Origin: Candidatus Eiseniibacteriota bacterium
GTDB lineage: Bacteria > Arandabacterota > Arandabacteria > JAGLYR01
Reading direction: 5' to 3'
Assembly (NCBI GenBank): GCA_023132135.1
Contig: JAGLYR010000133.1
Location: forward strand, 1-14,480
Length of the DNA stretch: 14,480 nucleotides
The notes beneath the pieces were generated by a model that ran no database searches, was not told where the DNA came from, and worked only from the letters and a program-made list of their open reading frames with translations. Positions 1,441 through 13,385 of the stretch are shown one piece after another; the stretch's first letter is position 1, and the number at the start of each line of letters is the position of its first letter. The translations under genes were made by a program, and so were the position numbers.

Positions 1441-1842
1441 CATTCGGGACAGAACCCTTATAGACAGAAAGAGTTACCCGCCTTGGGCTTACGCCCTTTC
1501 TTTTGTGGCCGGAGCCACCGCCCCAGCATCTTCTCCAACCGATCCACAAACTGCTTCCCTCCGCACGGCAATCCACAGTGGGCCGCTGCGCTTGACCATT
1601 CGTAATCCTCGGCCCGCTACTCCAGTACTTCCGAGCCCCGCTGGTCGCTCTCCTGTGTGCCTATCCCTTCACAGAGGATTCGATGACCCATCCAGAAGAC
1701 GCAAGCCCCTGTGGAATATAGAGATATCTAGTTGGGGGTCTGTCCCGAATGACCCTTCACAGAGGATTCGGTGACCAATCTAGAAGATGCAATCCCCTGT
1801 GGAATATAGAGATATCTAATTAGGGCTCTGTCCCGAATGACC
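1441..1842. repeat. 13-bp motif in inverted orientation, possible IS or MITE-like ends
   Basis: CATTCGGGACAGA occurs on the + strand at 1441-1453, four bases after the transposase stop. Its exact reverse complement occurs at 1739-1751 and again at 1827-1839. The flanks also partly match (ACCC after the first copy, GGGT or GGGC before the others). Inverted copies about 300 and 390 bp apart look like the terminal inverted repeats of a small non-autonomous element, or like ends of two neighbouring insertion sequences. Between 1459 and 1664 I see no convincing gene, RNA or repeat. Whether these ends belong to the IS4 element at 45-1437 cannot be decided, because its left end is not visible. Confidence 0.5.
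1665..1840. repeat. Two tandem 88-bp direct repeats
   Basis: Copy 1 is 1665-1752 and copy 2 is 1753-1840, directly abutting. By eye they differ at 8 of 88 positions (about 91% identity). Each unit begins CCCTTCACAGAGGATTCG, contains TATAGAGATATCTA (with the palindrome AGATATCT), and ends TCTGTCCCGAATGA. The unit end is the inverted-repeat motif also found at 1441. There is no array of more than two units and no unique spacer, so this is not CRISPR. It fits a duplicated element end or solo terminal sequence. Confidence 0.9.
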
Positions 1843-2844
1843 GGGGACGCCCGCCGACGGAAAGGTGATCTGTTGCTGGCTGCAGTCCTGCACGCTTAGT
1901 GCCCATATCGTCCATGTACATACTCCCGGGGAGGTCCCTGGCAAGTGTCTAGAATACACGATCGAGGACCCGTCGGGTGTCCACTTTGGCCCGTCAGCCC
2001 GCCCGGACGTGAGCTTGCATGCACCGGTGCCGTCTGGGCGGATCAGCCAGATAGAGTCACGCAGCTGAGCATGTCCTAGGTCCGTGGCGACAAAGGCTAT
2101 CCGCTTGCCGTCTGGAGACCATTGTGGATACCGTGCGTGGAACCACTGCCCTGAGGTTACCCGGCGCCTATTCTGGCCATCCGCGTCAACCACCCAGATG
2201 TCACTCCAGAGGCTCTGCCCCTCCGTCTCACCCAGGAATGCGATTCGCCCTCCGTCCGGACTCCAGTCCGGCATGCCGCCATTCCCAACAGACCAGCCAT
2301 CACTCCCATGTGCCTCGATCATGCACGTCTCCCCGAGCTGACCGCATGTGAAAGCAATATATCTCCCATCCGGAGACCAGTCCGGGTAATTCGAGGTGCC
2401 ATTGTGAGTGAGTCGTTCCACGCTTGAGTCTGCCAGTGAAATGACGTGGATGTCGAATCCCCGGGTGAACGCTATCTCTGTACCGTCTGGCGACCAATCG
2501 GGCTGTGTTCCGGTCGTAAGACGACCAGGGTTGGAGCCGTCTGACTCCGCGAGCCAAATCTCGTCGGGACCGATTCTGAAACGAGTGAAGGCAATCAGTT
2601 TGCCATCTGGGGACGGCGCTGGATCACGATCTGAATGCTCCGTCATATACTCCAGCCAGGGGCAACAAAGCGTGTCGGGATGAAGGCATACACACAATGT
2701 GTCAGGTCCAGGCGGTCCCGTAGACGTGCCTTTGTCAGCGCACGACGCAACCACCAACATGAGAGCGCAGCCGATCGCATGCAGTAGTCTTGGTGAGCTT
2801 CGACAAAACACCTTGGTCTCGCCTCGGTCTGCCGTAGTCAACAC
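1816..2844 (-). CDS. PD40/TolB-type beta-propeller lipoprotein
   Basis: Predicted secreted lipoprotein with six PD40 (TolB-like) propeller motifs. These read PSPDGKLIAFTR, WSPDGTEIAFTR, WSPDGRYIAFTC, WSPDGGRIAFLG, WSPDGKRIAFVA and WTPDGSSIVYSR, spread over most of the 342 residues. The N-terminus has a hydrophobic stretch ending in a lipobox, LVVASC, so cysteine 35 should be lipidated. The linker after it is Cys/Pro-rich. Such propellers usually act as periplasmic or surface binding scaffolds; no ligand can be read from sequence. Start: the GTG at 2844 has an AGAGGTG-like site just upstream. A GTG at 2811 would give a more compact 24-residue signal peptide but has a poorer site. Oddity: the last residues (GHSGQSPN) and the TAG come from the 88-bp repeat, so the native 3' end was replaced by element sequence. 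The gene runs away from the pilus operon. Confidence 0.8.
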   Translation of the reverse strand: MLTTADRGETKVFCRSSPRLLHAIGCALMLVVASCADKGTSTGPPGPDTLCVCLHPDTLCCPWLEYMTEHSDRDPAPSPDGKLIAFTRFRIGPDEIWLAESDGSNPGRLTTGTQPDWSPDGTEIAFTRGFDIHVISLADSSVERLTHNGTSNYPDWSPDGRYIAFTCGQLGETCMIEAHGSDGWSVGNGGMPDWSPDGGRIAFLGETEGQSLWSDIWVVDADGQNRRRVTSGQWFHARYPQWSPDGKRIAFVATDLGHAQLRDSIWLIRPDGTGACKLTSGRADGPKWTPDGSSIVYSRHLPGTSPGVCTWTIWALSVQDCSQQQITFPSAGVPGHSGQSPN

Positions 2845-3060: not shown

Positions 3061-3150
3061 AGTCCTGCACAGTACCGACTCCTCTTGGCACCAGATTCCC
3101 GACCACCGGAAAACTCTCGGAAAGCTCGGGTGGATGCGACGCCGCAGCAG

Positions 3151-3519
3151 ATGGCTGGTGAGAAATGCGGGTTAACTCTGATCGAGGTCCTGATGGGCGT
3201 CGTGATCCTGGGAACGGCCGTGGCGCCCGTCGCTCTGCTGATGACCAGCGGCCTGCAGGGGGCGCAGGTTCGCGAGGACTCCGCGCGAACGCTCTTTCTT
3301 GCGCAGGGAAGAATGGAGGAGGTCCTGGCTCTGGACTATGACGAAATCAGCGTCGGTCAGGGTTTGTCCGATTGGGCCACTGCTCCCGACTCGGTCTATC
3401 GAGCCGTCGAGGTGATTGACAACCCGGGCGGCTCGTTCGACACGGACATGAAACAGATCACAGTCACAGTAGGGTCAGTGTCGCTGGCCACCTACAAAAC
3501 AAATGCCCAGGAACCATGA
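3151..3519 (+). CDS. Type IV minor pilin / pseudopilin, PilV- or GspI-like
   Basis: Small pilin-like protein, 122 residues from the ATG at 3151. It has a short leader MAGEKCG, then the class III prepilin site G|LTLIEVLMGVVILG with Glu at +5 of the mature protein and a following hydrophobic helix. A prepilin peptidase would cut after the Gly and methylate the new N-terminus. The 'LTLIEVL...' type followed by a short alpha/beta domain with AQGRMEEVLAL matches PilV/GspI-like minor pilins that sit near the pilus tip or prime assembly. In-frame TTG (3085) and GTG (3130) starts are possible upstream, but they would give an overlong leader. No clear Shine-Dalgarno site precedes 3151. It is first in the apparent pilus operon and ends 28 nt before the next gene. 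Confidence 0.75.
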   Translation: MAGEKCGLTLIEVLMGVVILGTAVAPVALLMTSGLQGAQVREDSARTLFLAQGRMEEVLALDYDEISVGQGLSDWATAPDSVYRAVEVIDNPGGSFDTDMKQITVTVGSVSLATYKTNAQEP

Positions 3520-3547
3520 GCGCGGAAGCGGAAAAGGAAGGCGCAAC

Positions 3548-4453
3548 ATGAAGCGGAGCGAGTCGGGTCTGACACTGGTAGAGCTGCTCGTGGCTACCAC
3601 GCTCCTCTCAATCATGGCGCTGAGCTTCTTTTCTCTCACCCACGCGTCGCTCCGCGCATGGACGCATACCGAGAACCGTGACGAGCTCACCGAAGCCGGA
3701 CGGACGGCGCTCCATCGGATGACCGAGAACCTCCGCAACACGAACCGGGTCCTCCTTCCCTTCCAACTACCCACCCACGTGATCTCAACCCACCACGTTC
3801 TCTGCGTGGCCCTCGGGGTGGACAACGATGGGGACGGGCTGATCGACGAGGATAGCTACGACGTTTACCACGACGGCACCGCGGCCGGGATTCCCGGCAT
3901 CGACGACGACCAGGATGGAACCATCGACGAGGGGCCGAAGTCGGATGATGACGAAAGCATCTCGTTTGATGAGGACCCTCTGGACGGCTACGACAACGAC
4001 GGCGACGGGCGGATCGATGAGGACTGGGGGCCCGATATGAACGGCGACGGCGCACCCGGCGTCGCCTGGATTGACGACGACGGCGACGGACAGGTCGACG
4101 AGGGCAGTGCCGCCGACGATGACGAGGATGGGCTGGTCGACGAGGACCCCATTGAGCCCATCGTCTACTACGTGGACGGGAGCTCGCTGCCTCCCTGCCT
4201 GGTCGAGGAGCATCCCGTCGACGGCAAGACCGTCCTGGCGGAGAACCTGTACTACGAGGACCCGGACGAATACGAGGAGGGTTTCATCGTCAGGCGCGTG
4301 GTCATGCGAAACGGCGTCCACGTCGTCGAGCTGCATCTCCGGCTGATGACCGGGGACGGCGAGGTCATCGAGTTCAAGACCACCGTGGCCGTCCGGAGCT
4401 GCGAGATGAGGCCGGACTGGCAGACGGCCGGCCTGGGGGAGATTCCGCTGTGA
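3548..4453 (+). CDS. PilW-like minor pilin with acidic DxDxDG loop insert
   Basis: A 301-residue pilin-like protein. The ATG at 3548 is preceded by AAGGAAGG at good spacing and gives the short leader MKRSESG|LTLVELLVATTLLS, with Glu5 and the N-terminal helix of type IV pilins. Its size and second position after a PilV-like gene fit PilW/GspJ-like minor pilins. Residues 92-201 are unusual: five DxDxDGxxDE loops (about 92, 119, 149, 176 and 190) plus a partial DMNGDG (163). These resemble the calcium loops of dockerins, thrombospondin type 3 repeats and EF-hands. The C-terminal 100 residues look like a normal beta-rich pilin head (VVMRNGVHVVELHLRL). The insert may bind calcium and stabilise the tip or make an adhesin-like surface; that is inference. 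The stop TGA overlaps the next ATG (TGATG at 4451-4455), implying translational coupling. Confidence 0.75.
   Translation: MKRSESGLTLVELLVATTLLSIMALSFFSLTHASLRAWTHTENRDELTEAGRTALHRMTENLRNTNRVLLPFQLPTHVISTHHVLCVALGVDNDGDGLIDEDSYDVYHDGTAAGIPGIDDDQDGTIDEGPKSDDDESISFDEDPLDGYDNDGDGRIDEDWGPDMNGDGAPGVAWIDDDGDGQVDEGSAADDDEDGLVDEDPIEPIVYYVDGSSLPPCLVEEHPVDGKTVLAENLYYEDPDEYEEGFIVRRVVMRNGVHVVELHLRLMTGDGEVIEFKTTVAVRSCEMRPDWQTAGLGEIPL
3821..4147 (+). repeat. Repeated acidic DxDxDGxxDE loop region inside the PilW-like gene
   Basis: This stretch encodes residues 92-200 of the minor pilin. Loops read DNDGDGLIDE, DDDQDGTIDE, DNDGDGRIDE, DDDGDGQVDE and DDDEDGLVDE, separated by 4 to 20 residues that are also acidic. 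Oxygen ligands at loop positions 1, 3, 5 and 9-10 fit calcium coordination. At DNA level the GAC/GAT/GAC-GG runs give a GAC/GGC-rich low-complexity strip. Confidence 0.8.
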
Positions 4454-5445
4454 TGAGATCGGGACCGGGAGCCGACCGCGGGTTCGCCTTTGTCATGGCG
4501 CTCCTGGCCGCGGTGATGGTGGCCGGAATCGCCACGACCCTGGCCGTCGTCTCCGCGACGGAGTCCAGGATCTCCGATAACTACATCGACGCTAAACAAA
4601 TGACATGTCTTGCCGAGGCGGGCATCCAGCATGGACTGTGGCAGTTGTCCCAGGATCCGACGAACCTCGCCTCCTTGGCGGCACAGGGCCTCGGCGCCGG
4701 CAAGTACGATGTTGTCATCGCCCAATCGGATTGGGGCCGCTACCAGATCGCGGCCCGCGGCCGGACCGCCACCGCGCTGGGGGCAGGAATTGCCGTCGAC
4801 GTGTCGGTGTTCCCGCAGGCCTGCAACTACGCCCTTGTGGCCAAGACCTACGAGGACGTCAGCCTCAGCGCAGACATCCAGGGGGCCATCCTTGAGCCAC
4901 CACCTATGGATCTGGAGATCGACTACGCCGCGCTCCTCGCCCAGGCCGACTGGGTCTTCTCAGGCAATACCACATTCGATAACGATTTCTCGTTCAACGG
5001 CGTCATCTTCGTCAACGGCGATCTCACCTTCCGCGGCAACACGGTCTGGGTCGAGGGAACCATCGTTGCGACGCACGACATCAAGGTGGAACCCGATGAC
5101 TACGCCCACTTCGCCGGCAAGCCGGGAATGCCGGCGCTCGTCGCTGGAAACAACATCTTGCTGGGCGACAGCAACGAGAATGCCGCCTTGTCCATCCGCG
5201 GGATGGTCGTGGCCCAGCATGACATCACCTTTCGTGAATTCAATAGCTGCGACGTCTGGGGTTCCGTATGGGCGCACAACAAGGTCAAGATCGAACGCTG
5301 GTGCTGGGTCGACATCACGTGGGAACCAGGACTCCGCACCCGGCCACCCCTGGGAATCCTGCAGGATGTGGCCACCTACTCATGGGCGCTGATTCCCGGC
5401 ACATGGCAGACACTGGCGGACCTGACACCGTTTGATGCGCTGTAA
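4453..5445 (+). CDS. PilX-like minor pilin with beta-rich C-terminal domain
   Basis: A 330-residue protein from the ATG at 4453 (a GTG at 4450 is in frame). The N-terminus, RG|FAFVMALLAAVMVAGIATT, is a prepilin-like site and helix. It continues VVSATESRISDNY...AEAGIQHGLWQL, the signature of PilX N-terminal domains (ATTES-R-A-N ... AEAGI). The usual Glu5 is replaced: the mature start is FAFVM. This is common in PilX/GspK-like tip pilins, which do not need the Glu-N-terminus salt bridge. The remainder (about 140-310) repeats short strands such as GVIFVNGDLTF, VWVEGTIVATHDI and LSIRGMVVAQHDI, suggesting a beta-solenoid. Third pilin-like gene in the row, coupled to the previous one by overlap and ending 11 nt before pilM. 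It is probably a tip-complex component. Confidence 0.7.
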   Translation: MRSGPGADRGFAFVMALLAAVMVAGIATTLAVVSATESRISDNYIDAKQMTCLAEAGIQHGLWQLSQDPTNLASLAAQGLGAGKYDVVIAQSDWGRYQIAARGRTATALGAGIAVDVSVFPQACNYALVAKTYEDVSLSADIQGAILEPPPMDLEIDYAALLAQADWVFSGNTTFDNDFSFNGVIFVNGDLTFRGNTVWVEGTIVATHDIKVEPDDYAHFAGKPGMPALVAGNNILLGDSNENAALSIRGMVVAQHDITFREFNSCDVWGSVWAHNKVKIERWCWVDITWEPGLRTRPPLGILQDVATYSWALIPGTWQTLADLTPFDAL

Positions 5446-5456
5446 GGAGGCTCACC

Positions 5457-6581
5457 GTGAGATCCGTGCTCCGCAGCCTGAAGCGATCCAGAACAGCAAC
5501 TTGTCCCATCGGGGTCGACATCGGCGCCACAACCATCAAACTGGCCCGGGTGGGCATCGAGGGGAACACCGCAGGGGTCCGGACGGCCGGCATCGTCCAG
5601 CTGGCCGACCGCGATCCGGAGGGAGACGGACCGGACCGGCTGCGGGAATTCCTGAAGGACAGGCGGGTACGCAAACCCTGGCGCGCGGTCAGCGCTCTGC
5701 CCGCGTCCGATGCCCAGATCCGAATCCTCAACCTTCCGGCGGGAGACAGGGCCAGCTTGTCCCGGCGCGTGATCACGGCCGTCGAACGGGGACTTCCTTT
5801 CGGAACGGACGACACCGTCCTCGATTTCCACTCCCTCGGGCACTCGACCGATTCGGGGGAGAAAACGGAGCAGGTGCTGCTCACGGCAGCATCCCGCACT
5901 GCAGTCGACCGGCATCTGGAGTTCCTGCAGGGAGCCGGTCTGATCCCCGAAGCACTGGAGCTGGCGCCCTGGGCACTGGCCCGGGCCGTCCAATTCTGCG
6001 GGATCCGGCCCGACGCCACCTACGGCATCCTGGACCTGGGCCACACGACCAGCACCATCATGATCTTCGAGCAAGACCGGCTCTTCCTCAGCCGCGCCAT
6101 CCGGGCCGGCTCCAGGGTCCTGACCGACAAACTTCGAAAAGAGCTCGACCTGGATTGGGAACGGGCCGAACAGTTGAAGGGGGAAAGGGGACTGACCCTG
6201 GCCGCTCATGCCTGCTCCGACGGCGTGTGCGACCATGGAGGCACTCTTGTCGCCCGGATTCTGGATGACCTCCTTCTTCCCGTCCTGGCGCATCTTGTGG
6301 AGGAGGTGGAAAGGTCCATCGCGTACTACGCGTCGGAAACCCAGGGCAGCCATCTGGATCGGCTGATCCTGACCGGCGGAGGGGCGGGTCTGAAGAATCT
6401 CGACAGTTACCTGAGCCAACGGCTGGGAATCCCGGTCCAGACCATCGGGCCTGACGCGGACGGCCCGGCAGGCCTTCCCCAGGAGGCGAACGACGGCGCC
6501 GGCTGGCCCGTCCTGGCTACCGCCATCGGCCTGTCTCTGAGGAACGCGGCAACGAAACAGGAAACGGCAGCCCGTCGATGA
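5457..6581 (+). CDS. pilM: Type IV pilus assembly protein PilM (actin-like ATPase)
   Basis: Cytoplasmic actin/FtsA-fold protein that binds the N-terminal tail of PilN and couples the inner-membrane alignment complex to the motor. Seen: phosphate-1 motif in GVDIGATTIKLA (residues 19-30), phosphate-2 motif ILDLGHTTSTI (191-201) and adenosine motif LILTGGGAGLKNL (303-315). Their order and spacing are typical, and 374 residues is close to the normal PilM length. The start is a GTG at 5457 with a strong AAGGAGG at 5444-5450, placed across the stop of the upstream gene. The TGA overlaps the ATG of pilN (ATGA at 6578), the classical pilM-pilN coupling. Confidence 0.92.
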   Translation: MRSVLRSLKRSRTATCPIGVDIGATTIKLARVGIEGNTAGVRTAGIVQLADRDPEGDGPDRLREFLKDRRVRKPWRAVSALPASDAQIRILNLPAGDRASLSRRVITAVERGLPFGTDDTVLDFHSLGHSTDSGEKTEQVLLTAASRTAVDRHLEFLQGAGLIPEALELAPWALARAVQFCGIRPDATYGILDLGHTTSTIMIFEQDRLFLSRAIRAGSRVLTDKLRKELDLDWERAEQLKGERGLTLAAHACSDGVCDHGGTLVARILDDLLLPVLAHLVEEVERSIAYYASETQGSHLDRLILTGGGAGLKNLDSYLSQRLGIPVQTIGPDADGPAGLPQEANDGAGWPVLATAIGLSLRNAATKQETAARR

Positions 6582-7153
6582 AGAACATCAACCTCATTCC
6601 ACCCGACGTGCAAACGGCACAGCAGGTCCGGCAGAGACTGCGGTTCTGGATTACCGTGAACATCGCCGTTGCGGGGGTTCTGGTCTGTCTCACGGGTCTC
6701 CTGGCGTGGAACGTCCGGGTCGAGAAACTGGCGGCCGGGGAACTGGACACCGGCGTCACTGGCCTTCAGGGCCTGACTCTGGAGCTGGAACAGCTCCGGG
6801 ACGAGCGATCCACCCTCGCCAGGGAGGAACGCGCTCTGTCATTCCTGCTGGACCGGGCCCCGGACTACGACCTGGTCCGGGCGGTGGCGGAAGCCGTGGC
6901 GGACAACGGCTGGCTGATGAAGATGGAGATCAGCCGCTACGCGGGCGAGCAAAGGAACAGGGAGAGGGGCAGCGGCCGGCTGGTTCTCGAAGGCCACGCA
7001 GGCTCCTACAGCCACCTGGCAAAGCTGATGAGCAGACTGGACGCGCTGGAATACGTCGCATCCGTCGATCTCAAGCAATCCCAACGAGGGCAGGCCGCAG
7101 GCGTCGACGCCATCCAGTTTGAGCTGGAATGCCTGCTGGCCCCGGGAACGTAG
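6578..7153 (+). CDS. pilN: Type IV pilus assembly protein PilN
   Basis: Bitopic inner-membrane protein of the PilM-N-O-P platform. The N-terminus KNINLIPP carries the INLxP motif (residues 4-8) that docks into PilM. One membrane helix follows (about 25-45, WITVNIAVAGVLVCLTGLLAW), then a coiled-coil segment rich in E/L/R (60-100) and a small periplasmic alpha/beta domain (about 105-185). The length of 191 residues is usual. It overlaps pilM at the start and ends 8 nt before pilO. Sequence identity with known PilN proteins is probably low outside the motif, so the call leans on motif, topology and position. Confidence 0.88.
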   Translation: MKNINLIPPDVQTAQQVRQRLRFWITVNIAVAGVLVCLTGLLAWNVRVEKLAAGELDTGVTGLQGLTLELEQLRDERSTLAREERALSFLLDRAPDYDLVRAVAEAVADNGWLMKMEISRYAGEQRNRERGSGRLVLEGHAGSYSHLAKLMSRLDALEYVASVDLKQSQRGQAAGVDAIQFELECLLAPGT

Positions 7154-7161
7154 GTTTTCCC

Positions 7162-7704
7162 ATGAAGTCGGTTCGCCGGATCAATATCATCGGAGTGGCC
7201 GTAGCCTGTGCCCTGGCACTGGTGGCGCTGGTGGGTCCGGTGCGCGCCAAGGTGGCCGAGCGGAGCCGGATGGTGGCCCAGCACCGGTCCGCCCTGCTGA
7301 GTCTTGCGGAACAGCAGAAGGTCGAGGACCGCCTGGCCCGGGCCCAGAAGGAAATCGAATCCCTGAGTACCAGCATCGTGGAGCTTCATCGCTCGTTCCC
7401 GCCCAGGAAGGAGCTGGACTCCTTCCTTTCGGAGCTGCAAGGGCTGGCCAGGTCGAGCCGGGCCGATCTCGTGCGCGTGGTGCCCGGTGATTCCCGGCAG
7501 GGGGATGTCTACTCCACGGTGCGGGTGCATGTGGAAGCCAGAGCCGCCTTTGACGATTTCTACCGTTTCCTGTGGGGACTGGACCGGATGACCCGCCTGA
7601 GCCAGGTGGAATCGCTGAGAATCTCCCGCGACGGGACCAGCGACGCCTGCACCATTCAGGTGACCCTGTGCATCTTTGTCTCGGCCCAGGGAGAGCTCAC
7701 CTGA
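7162..7704 (+). CDS. pilO: Type IV pilus assembly protein PilO
   Basis: Inner-membrane partner of PilN with the same topology. It has a short cytoplasmic tail (MKSVRRIN), a membrane helix (about 8-26), a long coiled coil (about 30-80, ending in ELHRSFPPRKELDSFLSEL) and a C-terminal ferredoxin-like domain. The FPP-xx-EL-x-x-FL-x-x-L segment is characteristic of PilO. The ATG at 7162 gives 180 residues. In-frame codons upstream belong to the pilN tail region and would add a polar extension, so they are less likely. The Shine-Dalgarno site is weak, which fits translation following pilN termination at 7153. Confidence 0.87.
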   Translation: MKSVRRINIIGVAVACALALVALVGPVRAKVAERSRMVAQHRSALLSLAEQQKVEDRLARAQKEIESLSTSIVELHRSFPPRKELDSFLSELQGLARSSRADLVRVVPGDSRQGDVYSTVRVHVEARAAFDDFYRFLWGLDRMTRLSQVESLRISRDGTSDACTIQVTLCIFVSAQGELT

Positions 7705-7718
7705 CCTTGGAGGAACTC

Positions 7719-8273
7719 GTGAAATCCGGGAACAAACCCGATCCCACGAAGGCGAAGATCCAGAAGGTGGCGACGATCTGCCTCGGCCTTCTTTTCGTGG
7801 TCCTCCTCATCAAGACTCTCGCCGGCAAGGATGACGTGTCCGGACCGGCAACCCGGGCTGCAGCCAAATCCGGGGCAACGCGGACGGCCCAGGCATCTCC
7901 CCCTGTCGACGAAGAAAACCGGGAGCCCGTGATCCGGCTCGCCCGCCACAGCGGGCATTCACCGGACTCCGCCGAATGCGCCCCTCCTCCCAACCCGTTC
8001 CAGATGTCCACTCGGTTGAAGGAGGACATCACGGGGGTGCGCCGGACGACTGGAAAGGCGTCGAGCTCCGCTCCGAAACAGTGGACAATCCGGTTCAAGC
8101 TCCGGGGGATCGTGGCCGATCTCACAAATGGAGAACACGTTGCGCTCATTGACGATGAGCTGCTGCAGATCGGAGATGAGCACCGCGCGTACACCGTGCT
8201 GGACATCACCCGCACGGAAGTCGTCCTGGACAACGGGCGAGACCGCCAAGTGCTGCGGCTGGAAGAGAGATGA
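7719..8273 (+). CDS. PilP/GspB-like pilus or secretion platform protein
   Basis: A 184-residue protein starting at a GTG (7719) with TTGGAGGAA in front. It has one N-terminal membrane helix (about 18-36, VATICLGLLFVVLLIKTLAG), a low-complexity Ala/Thr/Pro linker, and a C-terminal beta domain. The domain begins with PPPNPFQ and reads KLRGIVADLTNGEHVALIDD, then QIGDE...YTVLDITRTEVVLDNGRDRQVLRL. The 'L-GI...ALI-D...-GD-...-V--I----V-L' pattern is that of the PilP or GspB/GspC homology domain, which contacts the secretin's periplasmic domains. It sits between pilO and the secretin, the place of pilP. PilP is usually a lipoprotein; here no lipobox is seen and a membrane helix replaces it. It overlaps the secretin start (ATGA at 8270). 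Confidence 0.72.
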   Translation: MKSGNKPDPTKAKIQKVATICLGLLFVVLLIKTLAGKDDVSGPATRAAAKSGATRTAQASPPVDEENREPVIRLARHSGHSPDSAECAPPPNPFQMSTRLKEDITGVRRTTGKASSSAPKQWTIRFKLRGIVADLTNGEHVALIDDELLQIGDEHRAYTVLDITRTEVVLDNGRDRQVLRLEER

Positions 8274-9622
8274 GACCGATGATGAAACACGAGAGCGCAT
8301 GGGCGGGATGGGGCATGGTTCTGGCAATGGCGCTGCAGATCCTGTTCCTGACGACTGCAGATGCGGCAACCAGTATCGCAGGCGAGCGGGCCGCCCCGCA
8401 GCACGTTTCCCTGAATCTGGAAGGGGCCGATCTGCTGGATGCTCTCAAGCTTCTCCTGGCTCCACGGGATCTGAACCTCGTCCTGGGCCAGGGAGTCGAG
8501 GGCACCGTCACGGTCCAGCTGGACAATGTCCCCTTCGATGAGGCTCTGGGCAGCATCCTGGCCGTCAACGGCCTCACCTGCTTCCGGCAGGACAACACCC
8601 TCTACGTTGTCCGCAACGCGGATGCGAGTGAACTGGCCCCGGACCTTCTTCGCTTGGATATTGCAACCTTCGAGGTCAACTACGCGCCGCTGGCGGAGAT
8701 GAAGACCGTTGTCGAGTCCTTTCTATCCCCGGCCGGGAGGCTCATGACGTCTCCCACTCTTTCCACCCTCGTGGTGGAGGACACTCCGGCCAGCCTCGAA
8801 ACCATAGAACTGCTGCTCGACGCGCTGGACATGCCCCCGCGTCAAGTTCTGATCCGCGCCCATATCGTGGATGTCACTCTGGATGAAGATACCGCCATGG
8901 GCATCGAGTGGGACTACCTGAGGGCGGCCGACGTCGTGGGCGAAGTCGTCAACACGGAAGCCACCGCCACTCTGAAAACGCAGGGATTCTCGCCGACGCT
9001 GTCCAGTGGTTTGTTCTTCAGTTTCGCGACGCAGGGGTTCCAGGCTTTCCTCGACGCTCTCCAGCAACGCACGGCCGTCGAAGTCCTGGCGAGTCCCACA
9101 ATCCTGGCCCTCGACGGCAAGAAAGCGGAAATCATCATCGGCAGCAAGCTGGGATTCCGGCTCCTCACGACCACCCAGACAGGGCAGCTGATGGAGACCA
9201 TCGAGTTTCTCGATGTCGGAACCCAATTGACCGTCACCCCCTACATCGGCAACGACGGTCTCATTGTCATGGACATTCATCCGGAAGTCAGCGACGGCGT
9301 GGTGGATGAGGGTCTGCCATCGGAAACCACAACCGAGGCGACCACGAGCCTGATCGTGCGCGATGGAGCCACCATCCTGATCGGCGGCCTAATGCGCCAC
9401 CGCGAGGAACACATCCGTTCCCAGGTCCCCCTCCTGGGCAGCATACCCATCCTCGGCCGCTTGTTCCGGAAATCGTCTTGGAGCGATGTGAAAAGCGAAG
9501 TCATCGTGGGGATCACGCCGCATATCGTGTCACCCCATGGATCCGACGAGATGGCCGGCGAGATCGGCCGCATCCGGGAAATCCGTAGCCGCACGTGGGG
9601 CAAGAGCCCTAAGGTTGACTGA
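8270..9622 (+). CDS. pilQ: Secretin, PilQ-like outer-membrane pore
   Basis: Forms the multimeric outer-membrane ring through which the pilus passes. Order of parts in 450 residues: a signal peptide (about 1-33, ending ADA), an N0/STN-like domain (about 45-115, LLDALKLLLAPRDLNLVLG and VTVQLDNVPFDEAL), one N1/secretin_N-type domain (about 128-190, with LVVEDTPASLETIELLLDALD), then the secretin barrel domain. The barrel carries VEVLASPTILALDGKKAEI and, from about residue 386, VPLLGSIPILGRLFR, the family signature. It is shorter than proteobacterial PilQ (usually 600-800) and lacks AMIN domains. The start at 8270 overlaps the previous stop; ATGs at 8279 and 8282 are alternatives. Its stop overlaps the next gene's ATG. 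A type II secretion GspD is less likely given the pilM-N-O context. Confidence 0.88.
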   Translation: MRPMMKHESAWAGWGMVLAMALQILFLTTADAATSIAGERAAPQHVSLNLEGADLLDALKLLLAPRDLNLVLGQGVEGTVTVQLDNVPFDEALGSILAVNGLTCFRQDNTLYVVRNADASELAPDLLRLDIATFEVNYAPLAEMKTVVESFLSPAGRLMTSPTLSTLVVEDTPASLETIELLLDALDMPPRQVLIRAHIVDVTLDEDTAMGIEWDYLRAADVVGEVVNTEATATLKTQGFSPTLSSGLFFSFATQGFQAFLDALQQRTAVEVLASPTILALDGKKAEIIIGSKLGFRLLTTTQTGQLMETIEFLDVGTQLTVTPYIGNDGLIVMDIHPEVSDGVVDEGLPSETTTEATTSLIVRDGATILIGGLMRHREEHIRSQVPLLGSIPILGRLFRKSSWSDVKSEVIVGITPHIVSPHGSDEMAGEIGRIREIRSRTWGKSPKVD

Positions 9623-11921: not shown

Positions 11922-11946
11922 ATAACATGAATCGTATTCATGTTAT
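11922..11946. promoter_or_regulatory. 25-bp perfect palindrome, candidate operator
   Basis: ATAACATGAAT (11922-11932), CGT, ATTCATGTTAT (11936-11946): 11-bp arms with no mismatch. It lies 20 nt after the regulator stop and 17 nt before the -35 box of the next promoter. No T-run follows, and the stem is AT-rich, so a terminator is unlikely. Its place and symmetry suggest binding by a dimeric regulator. A smaller dyad, GCAA-N5-TTGC (11951-11963), abuts the -35. Confidence 0.6.
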
Positions 11947-11963
11947 AGATGCAATTCATTTGC

Positions 11964-11992
11964 TTGACAGGGAGAGAGAAATCGTCTAATCT
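11964..11992 (+). promoter_or_regulatory. Sigma-70-type promoter for the Cys-rich gene
   Basis: TTGACA (11964-11969), a 17-bp spacer, then TAATCT (11987-11992). The -35 is a perfect consensus and the spacing is ideal. Transcription would begin near 12000, giving an approximately 80-nt leader before the ATG at 12081. It is the best promoter in the window. Confidence 0.75.
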
Positions 11993-12057: not shown

Positions 12058-12080
12058 GGGTTTGAAGGGAGGTGAAATCG

Positions 12081-13268
12081 ATGAGGAAAGCTATCGTGGT
12101 GGTTTCGGTGCTGGGGCTTGCCGGTATTGGAATCCTCCATTTCACGGGCGCGACGAGCCCCGTTTCACACGGGAGCTCTCCTGCTTTCCAGACGCTGCTC
12201 GCCGACGCGATCGCCCGTCTGGAGGGCGTAACACAGGAAGTTACGGTGGCCACGGTCGGGAATGCCCATGCCAATGATCGCGGGAGCGACCGGACAACGA
12301 TGGATCCAATGTGTGACACGACGGATCCGGCTTGCGGAGACGTCACCACTGATCCAGCCGACCCGGCCTGCAGTGGGGAGACCACCGATCCAGCCGATCC
12401 GGCTTGTGGTGGGACGACCACCGATCCGGCGGACCCGGCCTGCCAGTTGGAGACCGTGTACGACTCTGCCACCTGTGATCGCGACGACCCGGCCTGCTGG
12501 GATCTGACCTACGATCCCGCCTCGCCGACATGTGAGGCTTCCATCGCAACGTGTGACGCCACGGAAACGTGCTCGCGGTTCTACACGTGCGACTCGCAGT
12601 ACACCTGTCACGGCGAGCTCACGTGCGACGGCAACTGGACGTGCTGGAATTCCACGTGCGACGAGCCCGAGATGACGTGCGACGGGATCTCGGAGACATG
12701 CGACGCCGCATGCATCCCGTACACGTACCAGGGCAACTACACCTGCGATGGTTCGATCACGTGCCACGAGACCTGTGAGGGCTGGCCGAACTGTGGGATG
12801 CCCACGGTCTACGACACCGACACCTGTGACCGGGACGACCCCAGATGCTGGGACCTGACCTACAACGCGGACATGCCGACTTGCGCCGCTGGAATGGTCA
12901 CCTGCACCGACGTCGAAACCTGCACCCGCTTCTACACATGTGACTCGCAGTACACGTGTCACGGCGAGGAGACGTGCAACGGGATCTTCACGTGCTGGAG
13001 CTCTACGTGCGCCGACGCGGAAACCTGCGACGGAACTCCGGACTGCTGTGACCCTCCGTTCACATTCCAGGGGAACTACACGTGTGACGACAGCGAAACG
13101 TGCCAGATGACCTGTGATGGTTGGCCGACGTGCTCCACGCTCCCGACGTGTGACGGCGCGGACACCTGTCACGACACCTGTGACGGGTGGCCGGGATGCT
13201 TCAACGGGCAGCCCAGCGGCTCCGACCGCACAACGTGGGGCAAGATGAAGAGACAGTTCAACGAATAG
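12081..13268 (+). CDS. Secreted Cys-rich TCxGxx-repeat protein, unknown family
   Basis: I do not recognise this 395-residue protein. The ATG at 12081 has GGGAGGTG seven bases upstream; an in-frame GTG at 12072 lies inside that site. The N-terminus, MRKAIVVVSVLGLAGIGILHF, is a signal peptide or membrane anchor. A Ser/Thr-rich segment of about 50 residues follows, then four xxxTTDPADPAC-type 12-residue units. After these come two tandem modules of about 115 residues containing hexapeptide repeats such as TCDSQY-TCHGEL-TCDGNW-TC. I count 43 cysteines, none before residue 70, mostly preceded by Thr. The regular Thr-Cys spacing suggests a disulfide-stacked solenoid outside the cytoplasm, or a metal-binding surface protein. 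It has its own promoter and terminator and follows the pilus and signalling genes; a link to the pilus is only suggested by position. Confidence 0.8.
   Translation: MRKAIVVVSVLGLAGIGILHFTGATSPVSHGSSPAFQTLLADAIARLEGVTQEVTVATVGNAHANDRGSDRTTMDPMCDTTDPACGDVTTDPADPACSGETTDPADPACGGTTTDPADPACQLETVYDSATCDRDDPACWDLTYDPASPTCEASIATCDATETCSRFYTCDSQYTCHGELTCDGNWTCWNSTCDEPEMTCDGISETCDAACIPYTYQGNYTCDGSITCHETCEGWPNCGMPTVYDTDTCDRDDPRCWDLTYNADMPTCAAGMVTCTDVETCTRFYTCDSQYTCHGEETCNGIFTCWSSTCADAETCDGTPDCCDPPFTFQGNYTCDDSETCQMTCDGWPTCSTLPTCDGADTCHDTCDGWPGCFNGQPSGSDRTTWGKMKRQFNE
12318..12443 (+). repeat. 36-nt tandem repeats encoding TTDPADPAC units
   Basis: Four in-frame units end in Cys codons at 12333, 12369, 12405 and 12441, exactly 36 nt apart. 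The first lacks the AD residues. Core codons ACC-GAT-CC(A/G)-GC(C/G)-GA(C/T)-CCG are nearly identical between units, indicating recent tandem duplication. Confidence 0.85.
12453..13145 (+). repeat. Tandem duplication of a Cys-rich module of about 115 residues
   Basis: Module A is 12453-12803 and module B is 12804-13145, both beginning with TVYD. The first 69 residues align without gaps, with about 49 identical by eye (71%), and every cysteine is conserved. The later parts align with small indels (YTYQGNYTC against FTFQGNYTC). A short third partial unit, TCDGADTCHDTCDGWPGC, follows at the C-terminus. Confidence 0.85.
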
Positions 13269-13306
13269 AAGAGATTCATAGAGTTCTACGAGGATTCCCC
13301 GGATAG

Positions 13307-13340
13307 CCGGGGCGGCATCATGAGAAGCCGTCCCGGTTTT
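13307..13340 (+). terminator. Rho-independent terminator after the Cys-rich gene
   Basis: CCGGGGCGGC (13307-13316) pairs with GCCGTCCCGG (13327-13336), 10 bp with one G-T wobble and a 10-nt loop, followed by TTTT (13337-13340). It begins 38 nt after the TAG. An alternative hairpin CCCCGG-ATAG-CCGGGG (13297-13312) uses the same 5' arm. On the opposite strand there is no T-run, so it should serve the + strand. Confidence 0.75.
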
Positions 13341-13385
13341 CCTTATGTATTCCGCGGACACGGGGGCTGCTGAAATCGAAGGAAG

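Follow-up and report, generated by a model that had tools for sequence, protein, structure and literature searches.

The NVEALA peptides of Bacteroidetes (PF14055) combine an N-terminal signal or anchor with a short leader and a Cys-containing part. Proteins secreted by the type IX system (T9SS) may end in a sorting domain of about 70 aa. On the side of the machinery, the DUF4350 proteins, which are distant relatives of GldG, have been assigned, by prediction, to a secretion complex (Makarova et al., PMC5898192). The locus considered here encodes a 395-aa cysteine-repeat protein, which we call the TC protein for its Thr-Cys pairs, and lies in a window of 14,480 nt, the whole stretch of DNA that was analysed, on contig C39 of a 3.4-Mb, 96% complete Candidatus Eiseniibacteriota MAG. 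The host class is small, poorly known and FCB-related. From sequence comparison, we judge the TC protein to be a member of an undescribed family of secreted cysteine-repeat proteins. Its most informative feature, missed by the initial annotation, is a short tag at the C-terminus. Our main reading, to which we give a probability of about 0.5, is that the TC protein is a disulfide-rich surface protein that would be exported by Sec, sorted by its tag, probably in connection with T9SS, and assisted by a pair of GIFT-type membrane proteins.

The TC gene and its family

The features of the gene and its flanks are as follows.

11922-11946, no strand: inverted repeat ATAACATGAAT-CGT-ATTCATGTTAT, 11-bp arms and 3-nt spacer, a candidate operator
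11964-11990, + strand: promoter-like TTGACA-15-TCTAAT, near consensus (weak evidence)
12067-12075, + strand: Shine-Dalgarno GGGAGGTGA, a good match read in the sequence
12081-13268, + strand: ORF of the TC protein, ATG to stop, read in the sequence
12081-12158, + strand: N-terminal signal or anchor segment MRKAIVVVSVLGLAGIGILHFTG..., a basic n-region plus hydrophobic stretch, kept in seven family members
12177-12272, + strand: leader, residues 33-64, SPAFQTLLADAIARLEG...AHA, with residues invariant in the family
12309-12443, + strand: array of about 12-aa TTDPADPAC-type repeats, within the family found in the window paralogue only
12444-12800, + strand: cysteine domain copy 1, about 117 aa, from repeat comparison
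12801-13145, + strand: cysteine domain copy 2, 64% identical to copy 1
13146-13199, + strand: partial third repeat PTCDGADTCHDTCDGWPGC, repeat family D3
13221-13265, + strand: C-terminal tag SDRTTWGKMKRQFNE, with residues invariant in the family, and common to many unrelated exported proteins
about 13301-13342, + strand: intrinsic-terminator-like hairpin (-31.7 kcal/mol) followed by TTTT, read in the sequence

The initial annotation described a protein of 43 Cys built from Thr-Cys hexapeptides. The ORF and its composition are real: there are 31 Thr-Cys pairs, against 7.3 +/- 2.4 in 2000 shuffles (maximum 15), and 19 Cys pairs six residues apart, against 5.3 +/- 2.1 (maximum 15), with all of the Cys residues after residue 64, so that residues 1-64 are Cys-free. 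The hexapeptide, however, is not the building block. Strict six-residue spacing is limited to residues 158-188 and 275-305, with five to six Cys each, and the remaining spacings are 4, 5, 7, 11 and 12; the true unit is the domain of about 117 aa (a spacing of 351 nt, two copies plus the partial third), preceded by the 12-mer array, which TRF places at 12345-12455 with a period of 36. No two Cys residues are 2 or 3 apart, so that CxC and CxxC do not occur, which excludes haem c and the spacing of classical metallothioneins and usual Fe-S proteins. The candidates multihaem cytochrome and metallothionein were dropped on these grounds (no CXXCH, CxC or CxxC). AlphaFold models of the domain (2 sequences) and of the full protein have pLDDT values of 35 and 39, and so permit no statement on cysteine stacking; the low-confidence full-length model draws the leader and residues 386-393 as helix.

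Judged from sequence features, without a dedicated predictor, the TC protein appears to begin with a signal peptide, as would be expected of a T9SS substrate. Three sets of residues are invariant across the seven family members: those of the leader, S33-P-A-F...L..AIARL.G..Q (S33, P34, A35, F36, L40, A43, I44, A45, R46, L47, G49 and Q52, with A64 at its end), the Cys residues with their TC or CDG context, and those of the tail, R383-TTWG..K..F (R383, T384, T385, W386, G387, K390 and F393).

That this is an unrecognised, secreted, Cys-rich family kept in relatives, as had been supposed, is borne out, and searches of Pfam, NCBIfam and the PDB with the protein and the family profile gave no match. 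The window's own genome has two paralogues, one of about 470 aa with three cysteine domains (C228:4703-6106) and one of 320 aa with two (C249:9251-10210). Relatives of about 190-205 aa occur in four of the seven other genomes of the class. The cysteine domain is present in one to three copies per member and is shorter in some relatives; in those of genomes G003 and G007 the Cys part is both shorter and diverged. No family member was matched in 90 genomes outside the class. By the Nei-Gojobori method, dN/dS is 0.15 between the G001 and G004 relatives and 0.19 between the repeat copies of the window protein (dS 1.4), and therefore the TC protein is under purifying selection and is not a chance repeat. 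The C249 paralogue is preceded, close to a tRNA, by tandem-like repeated ORFs (GRIQMSILQTTHPGTNCQPPMR...) that look like a local repeat array (L017 2792-3675).

A Shine-Dalgarno sequence like GGGGTGA or GGAGGTGA precedes all of the paralogues. The claim that the window gene is regulated, by a strong promoter, a possible operator and a terminator, fares unevenly. Operator and terminator are fairly described, though the inverted repeat is absent upstream of the paralogues and relatives that were checked. The strong promoter does not stand: a strict sigma-70 scan upstream of the gene finds no promoter, and TTGACA-15-TCTAAT fails it because its spacer is 15. A riboswitch reading was dropped, as an Rfam search of the region before the gene found no element. 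An antisense ORF of 398 aa (12165-13361, - strand) is like the TC gene in length by coincidence, and probably arises as a side effect of the regular GC-rich codons.

Elsewhere in the window, a type IV pilus or pseudopilin-like cluster (3085-9622) encodes two N-methylated prepilin-like proteins, a PilX-like protein, PilM-, PilN-, PilO- and PilP-like ORFs and a secretin (PF00263); response regulators and a histidine kinase are encoded immediately after it. A lipoprotein-like WD40-type (PD40, TolB-like) beta-propeller gene lies at 1816-2844 (- strand). Two 88-nt tandem copies (1665-1842), possibly a duplicated element end, lie just downstream of an IS4-type DDE transposase gene (211-1437; PF01609).

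The C-terminal tag and type IX secretion

The tag came to light when the family profile weakly matched the last residues of many unrelated ORFs. It has the form ATExTTWGx[IVL]Kxx[YF]R-stop, with P[ST]ATExTTWGxIKxxYR-stop as the typical ending, is about 11-18 aa long, and lacks a hydrophobic segment. Dozens of unrelated signal-peptide proteins carry it, in this lineage and in MAGs of Eisenbacteria, Krumholzibacteria, Zixibacteria and Poribacteria; among the bearers are proteins of beta-helix and NosD-like type, along with many unnamed families. When TxWG..K..[YF] was searched for as a DNA pattern, the eight genomes of the class gave 68 matches, against 1 for the reversed pattern. When [IVL], a basic-type codon and the stop codon were required as well, 91 matches were obtained in 16 of 154 genomes, and the reversed control had none in those genomes. 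With a still stricter pattern, almost all of the matches listed from the GTDB species set are in Eisenbacteria, Krumholzibacteria, Zixibacteria, Poribacteria, Latescibacteria, Fermentibacteria and unnamed MAGs, and named contigs of these six groups hold at least 87 tag ORFs. Because its codons vary, the tag is conserved at the level of the protein. A signal-peptide-like start, called in both sets by the same crude hydrophobicity rule, is found in 55 of 65 complete tag ORFs and in 94 of 340 background ORFs (p = 5e-18). The tag is covered by neither an NCBIfam nor a Pfam model, and the tag strings turned up no paper when the literature was searched. The natural reading of these sequence patterns is that the tag is a C-terminal sorting signal, and it probably marks an undescribed protein-sorting route.

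Is this route that of T9SS? SprA (TIGR04189) scores above the curated cut-off in all eight genomes of the class and in none of 14 control genomes. Among the same 154 genomes, with SprA called at E of at most 1e-20, it is present in 15 of the 16 tagged and 34 of the 138 untagged genomes (p = 8e-8); outside the TC protein's own class, the figures are 7 of 8 and 34 of 138 (p = 6e-4). The exception is G046, in which two loci (L273, L274) have in-frame TTTWGxxK tags and there is no SprA match. At E 1, the TC protein has no match to a C-terminal domain of the TIGR04183 or PF18962 type. The tag proteins match no T9SS family, and the tag bears no resemblance to the T9SS domain of about 70 aa. A search of the literature on T9SS in these phyla found nothing usable. 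The association of tag with SprA may in part reflect the shared ancestry of FCB-related phyla. Since it is an association, not a dependence, and the phyla are related, we hold a link between tag and T9SS at somewhat better than even odds.

The GIFT/DUF4350 membrane pair and the leader

At four loci, those of the C228 paralogue and of the G001, G003 and G004 relatives, the TC gene is directly upstream of genes for a pair of large membrane proteins (one of about 790 aa, the other of 740-900 aa) with DUF4350, ABC_transp_aux and IFT52/GIFT domains. The first protein of the pair (at least 53% identity) is found in exactly the five genomes that have a TC protein and is absent from the other three (p = 0.018). 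No such pair adjoins the window copy. The proposal that the TC gene stands alone is thus right for the window, but fails for the C228 paralogue and, in three genomes, for the relatives. The window gene is apparently a paralogue that was relocated and extended in tandem, and it has a promoter region and terminator of its own.

Three genomes of the class have a second, divergent pair, which is adjoined not by a TC protein but by a small Cys protein of CVGSG pentads that is without the TTWG tag. The pentad proteins (CVGSGCVGSTC) lie upstream of the second pair at L232 2385-2690, L233 9626-10129 and L234 2262-2732, and in two of the loci a small membrane protein of about 110 aa is encoded in between. 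Where complete, they have the leader SPLF; the end of a fourth such protein is seen in G007.

In other lineages too, such pairs have secreted Cys-repeat proteins beside them. In G200 the neighbour is a protein of 1590 aa with leader TPLF and 145 Cys, mostly ten apart (TNPxYDPxC); this secreted protein, of an unrelated phylum, lies opposite the GIFT/DUF4350 pair (L261 6337-10503; L271). The G058 neighbour has TDPQWCA repeats and the leader SPLY and, where the TC protein has its tag, carries at its end a T9SS type A sorting domain (TIGR04183, 30.8 bits against a cut-off of 23). The G143 neighbour ends in a FlgD-like domain. In G272 the neighbour has the leader SPLF and a reading frame poor in Cys, a Cys-rich stretch being in another frame. 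Among 559 signal-peptide-like ORFs from the loci tested, [ST]P[LA][FY] follows the hydrophobic segment in six, and all six are TC proteins or pair neighbours. The distant leaders get no significant score from a leader profile that was made from the TC protein's own class alone, so that the leader link rests on the short motif and on position. A secreted Cys-repeat protein beside the pair fits the secretion-complex prediction (PMC5898192).

Proposed role and comparison with known systems

How might the TC protein reach its place of action? Sec would carry it across the inner membrane, and in the oxidising envelope its cysteines would pair as disulfides, giving a stable repeat protein of rod-like or plate-like shape. 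The tag would then serve as a sorting signal, recognised most likely by the T9SS machinery or by something that accompanies T9SS, and bring the protein to the cell surface or the matrix. In what may be the ancestral arrangement, the TC protein is made together with the two GldG/GIFT/DUF4350 membrane proteins, which would capture the leader and aid export or assembly; the window copy is perhaps served by the pair on C228. Outside the cell it might act in matrix, fibre, armour or adhesion; our best guess is a rigid repeat protein, stabilised by disulfides, that belongs to the matrix or the surface.

It is possible, if on the whole unlikely, that the tag is instead the address of an independent, undescribed route of surface anchoring or export that is common in the same phyla by chance; an outer-membrane receptor would be an example, as would a peptidase that clips the tail. 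The shortness of the tag, which lacks both hydrophobic segment and T9SS domain, would suit such a route, as would tag proteins without T9SS family matches and the G046 tags without SprA; against it stand the strong co-occurrence of tag and SprA and, in the same type of protein (G058), a T9SS domain in the tag's place. Other readings concern the cysteines. We consider it improbable that the TC domains form a disulfide-ladder solenoid like that of the beetle antifreeze proteins: although in places five to six TC pairs in a row keep a spacing of exactly six residues, and short strands are drawn there in low-confidence models (pLDDT 35-39, given no weight), these runs are short and interrupted by spacings of 4, 5, 7, 11 and 12, the repeat is of about 117 aa, and Pfam and the PDB offer no similarity.

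From 43 Cys in an acidic protein whose MAG hosts likely live anaerobically or in sediments, one might suspect free thiolates, in a redox protein or in a metal-binding one of the metallothionein-like kind; yet the protein is exported, has neither CxxC nor CxC and matches no family, and we think this reading quite improbable. More improbable still is a RiPP-like precursor, in which a conserved leader would precede a variable Cys-rich core that is modified and exported. An SP[AL]F leader that is conserved, followed by repeats that vary, has this look, the AxA at the leader's end resembles a cleavage site, and NVEALA peptides are small-peptide analogues of similar layout; against it, no modification enzyme is recognisable in the window or among the paralogue neighbours inspected, the proteins reach 1590 aa, and their endings are sorting tags or domains. 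Our preferred reading remains that of a Sec-exported, disulfide-rich surface protein sorted by its tag.

A wider, lineage-spanning system can be sketched tentatively, although we are doubtful of it as a whole: the TTWGxIK tag would be an undescribed sorting signal that each phylum uses on dozens of its proteins, and, as a module of their own, the SPLF-leader Cys-repeat protein and two GldG/DUF4350 proteins would build disulfide-linked surface fibres, with the repeats evolving freely while leader, pair and tail are kept. With the tag, candidate surface proteins of uncultured Eisenbacteria, Krumholzibacteria, Zixibacteria, Poribacteria and relatives can be picked out from sequence in a simple way; these are phyla about whose envelope biology next to nothing is known. 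Should the type IX machinery be what reads the tag, T9SS substrates would be far more numerous than the known domain of about 70 aa suggests. The module of leader, Cys repeats and GIFT pair also makes the DUF4350 secretion-complex prediction directly testable, because it supplies a candidate substrate.

Of the known systems, some are alike only in part. Among extensin-like and other low-complexity Cys or Pro repeats, Extensin_1 is like the G200 relative in composition only, and has no such match to the window protein. The TC protein is far larger than the NVEALA peptides (PF14055), has repeats and a C-terminal tag, and matches no Pfam family at E 1. With the beetle antifreeze proteins (Tenebrio and Dendroides, TCT repeats) it has regular Thr-Cys spacing in common, but their repeats are a uniform 12 aa, whereas the TC protein has short six-residue runs within a 117-aa unit and no sequence match to them; non-uniform Cys spacing and the lack of a Pfam match rule out membership in the insect antifreeze family.

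The DUF4350/GldG-like (GIFT) complex (Makarova et al. 2015, PMC5898192) is closer, since the C228 paralogue and its relatives lie directly upstream of two DUF4350/ABC_transp_aux/GIFT proteins. The pair differs from that complex in that neither a vWA protein nor a MoxR-type ATPase is seen beside it, and its proteins, of about 800 aa, each contain many hydrophobic segments; moreover, no pair adjoins the window copy. With T9SS type A substrates (TIGR04183; PF18962, Por_Secre_tail) the TC protein shares a signal peptide, a putative C-terminal sorting element and a genome that encodes SprA. The difference lies in the sorting element itself: the Cys-repeat counterpart in G058 carries TIGR04183, and the window protein has a short tag of the TTWGxIK type instead.
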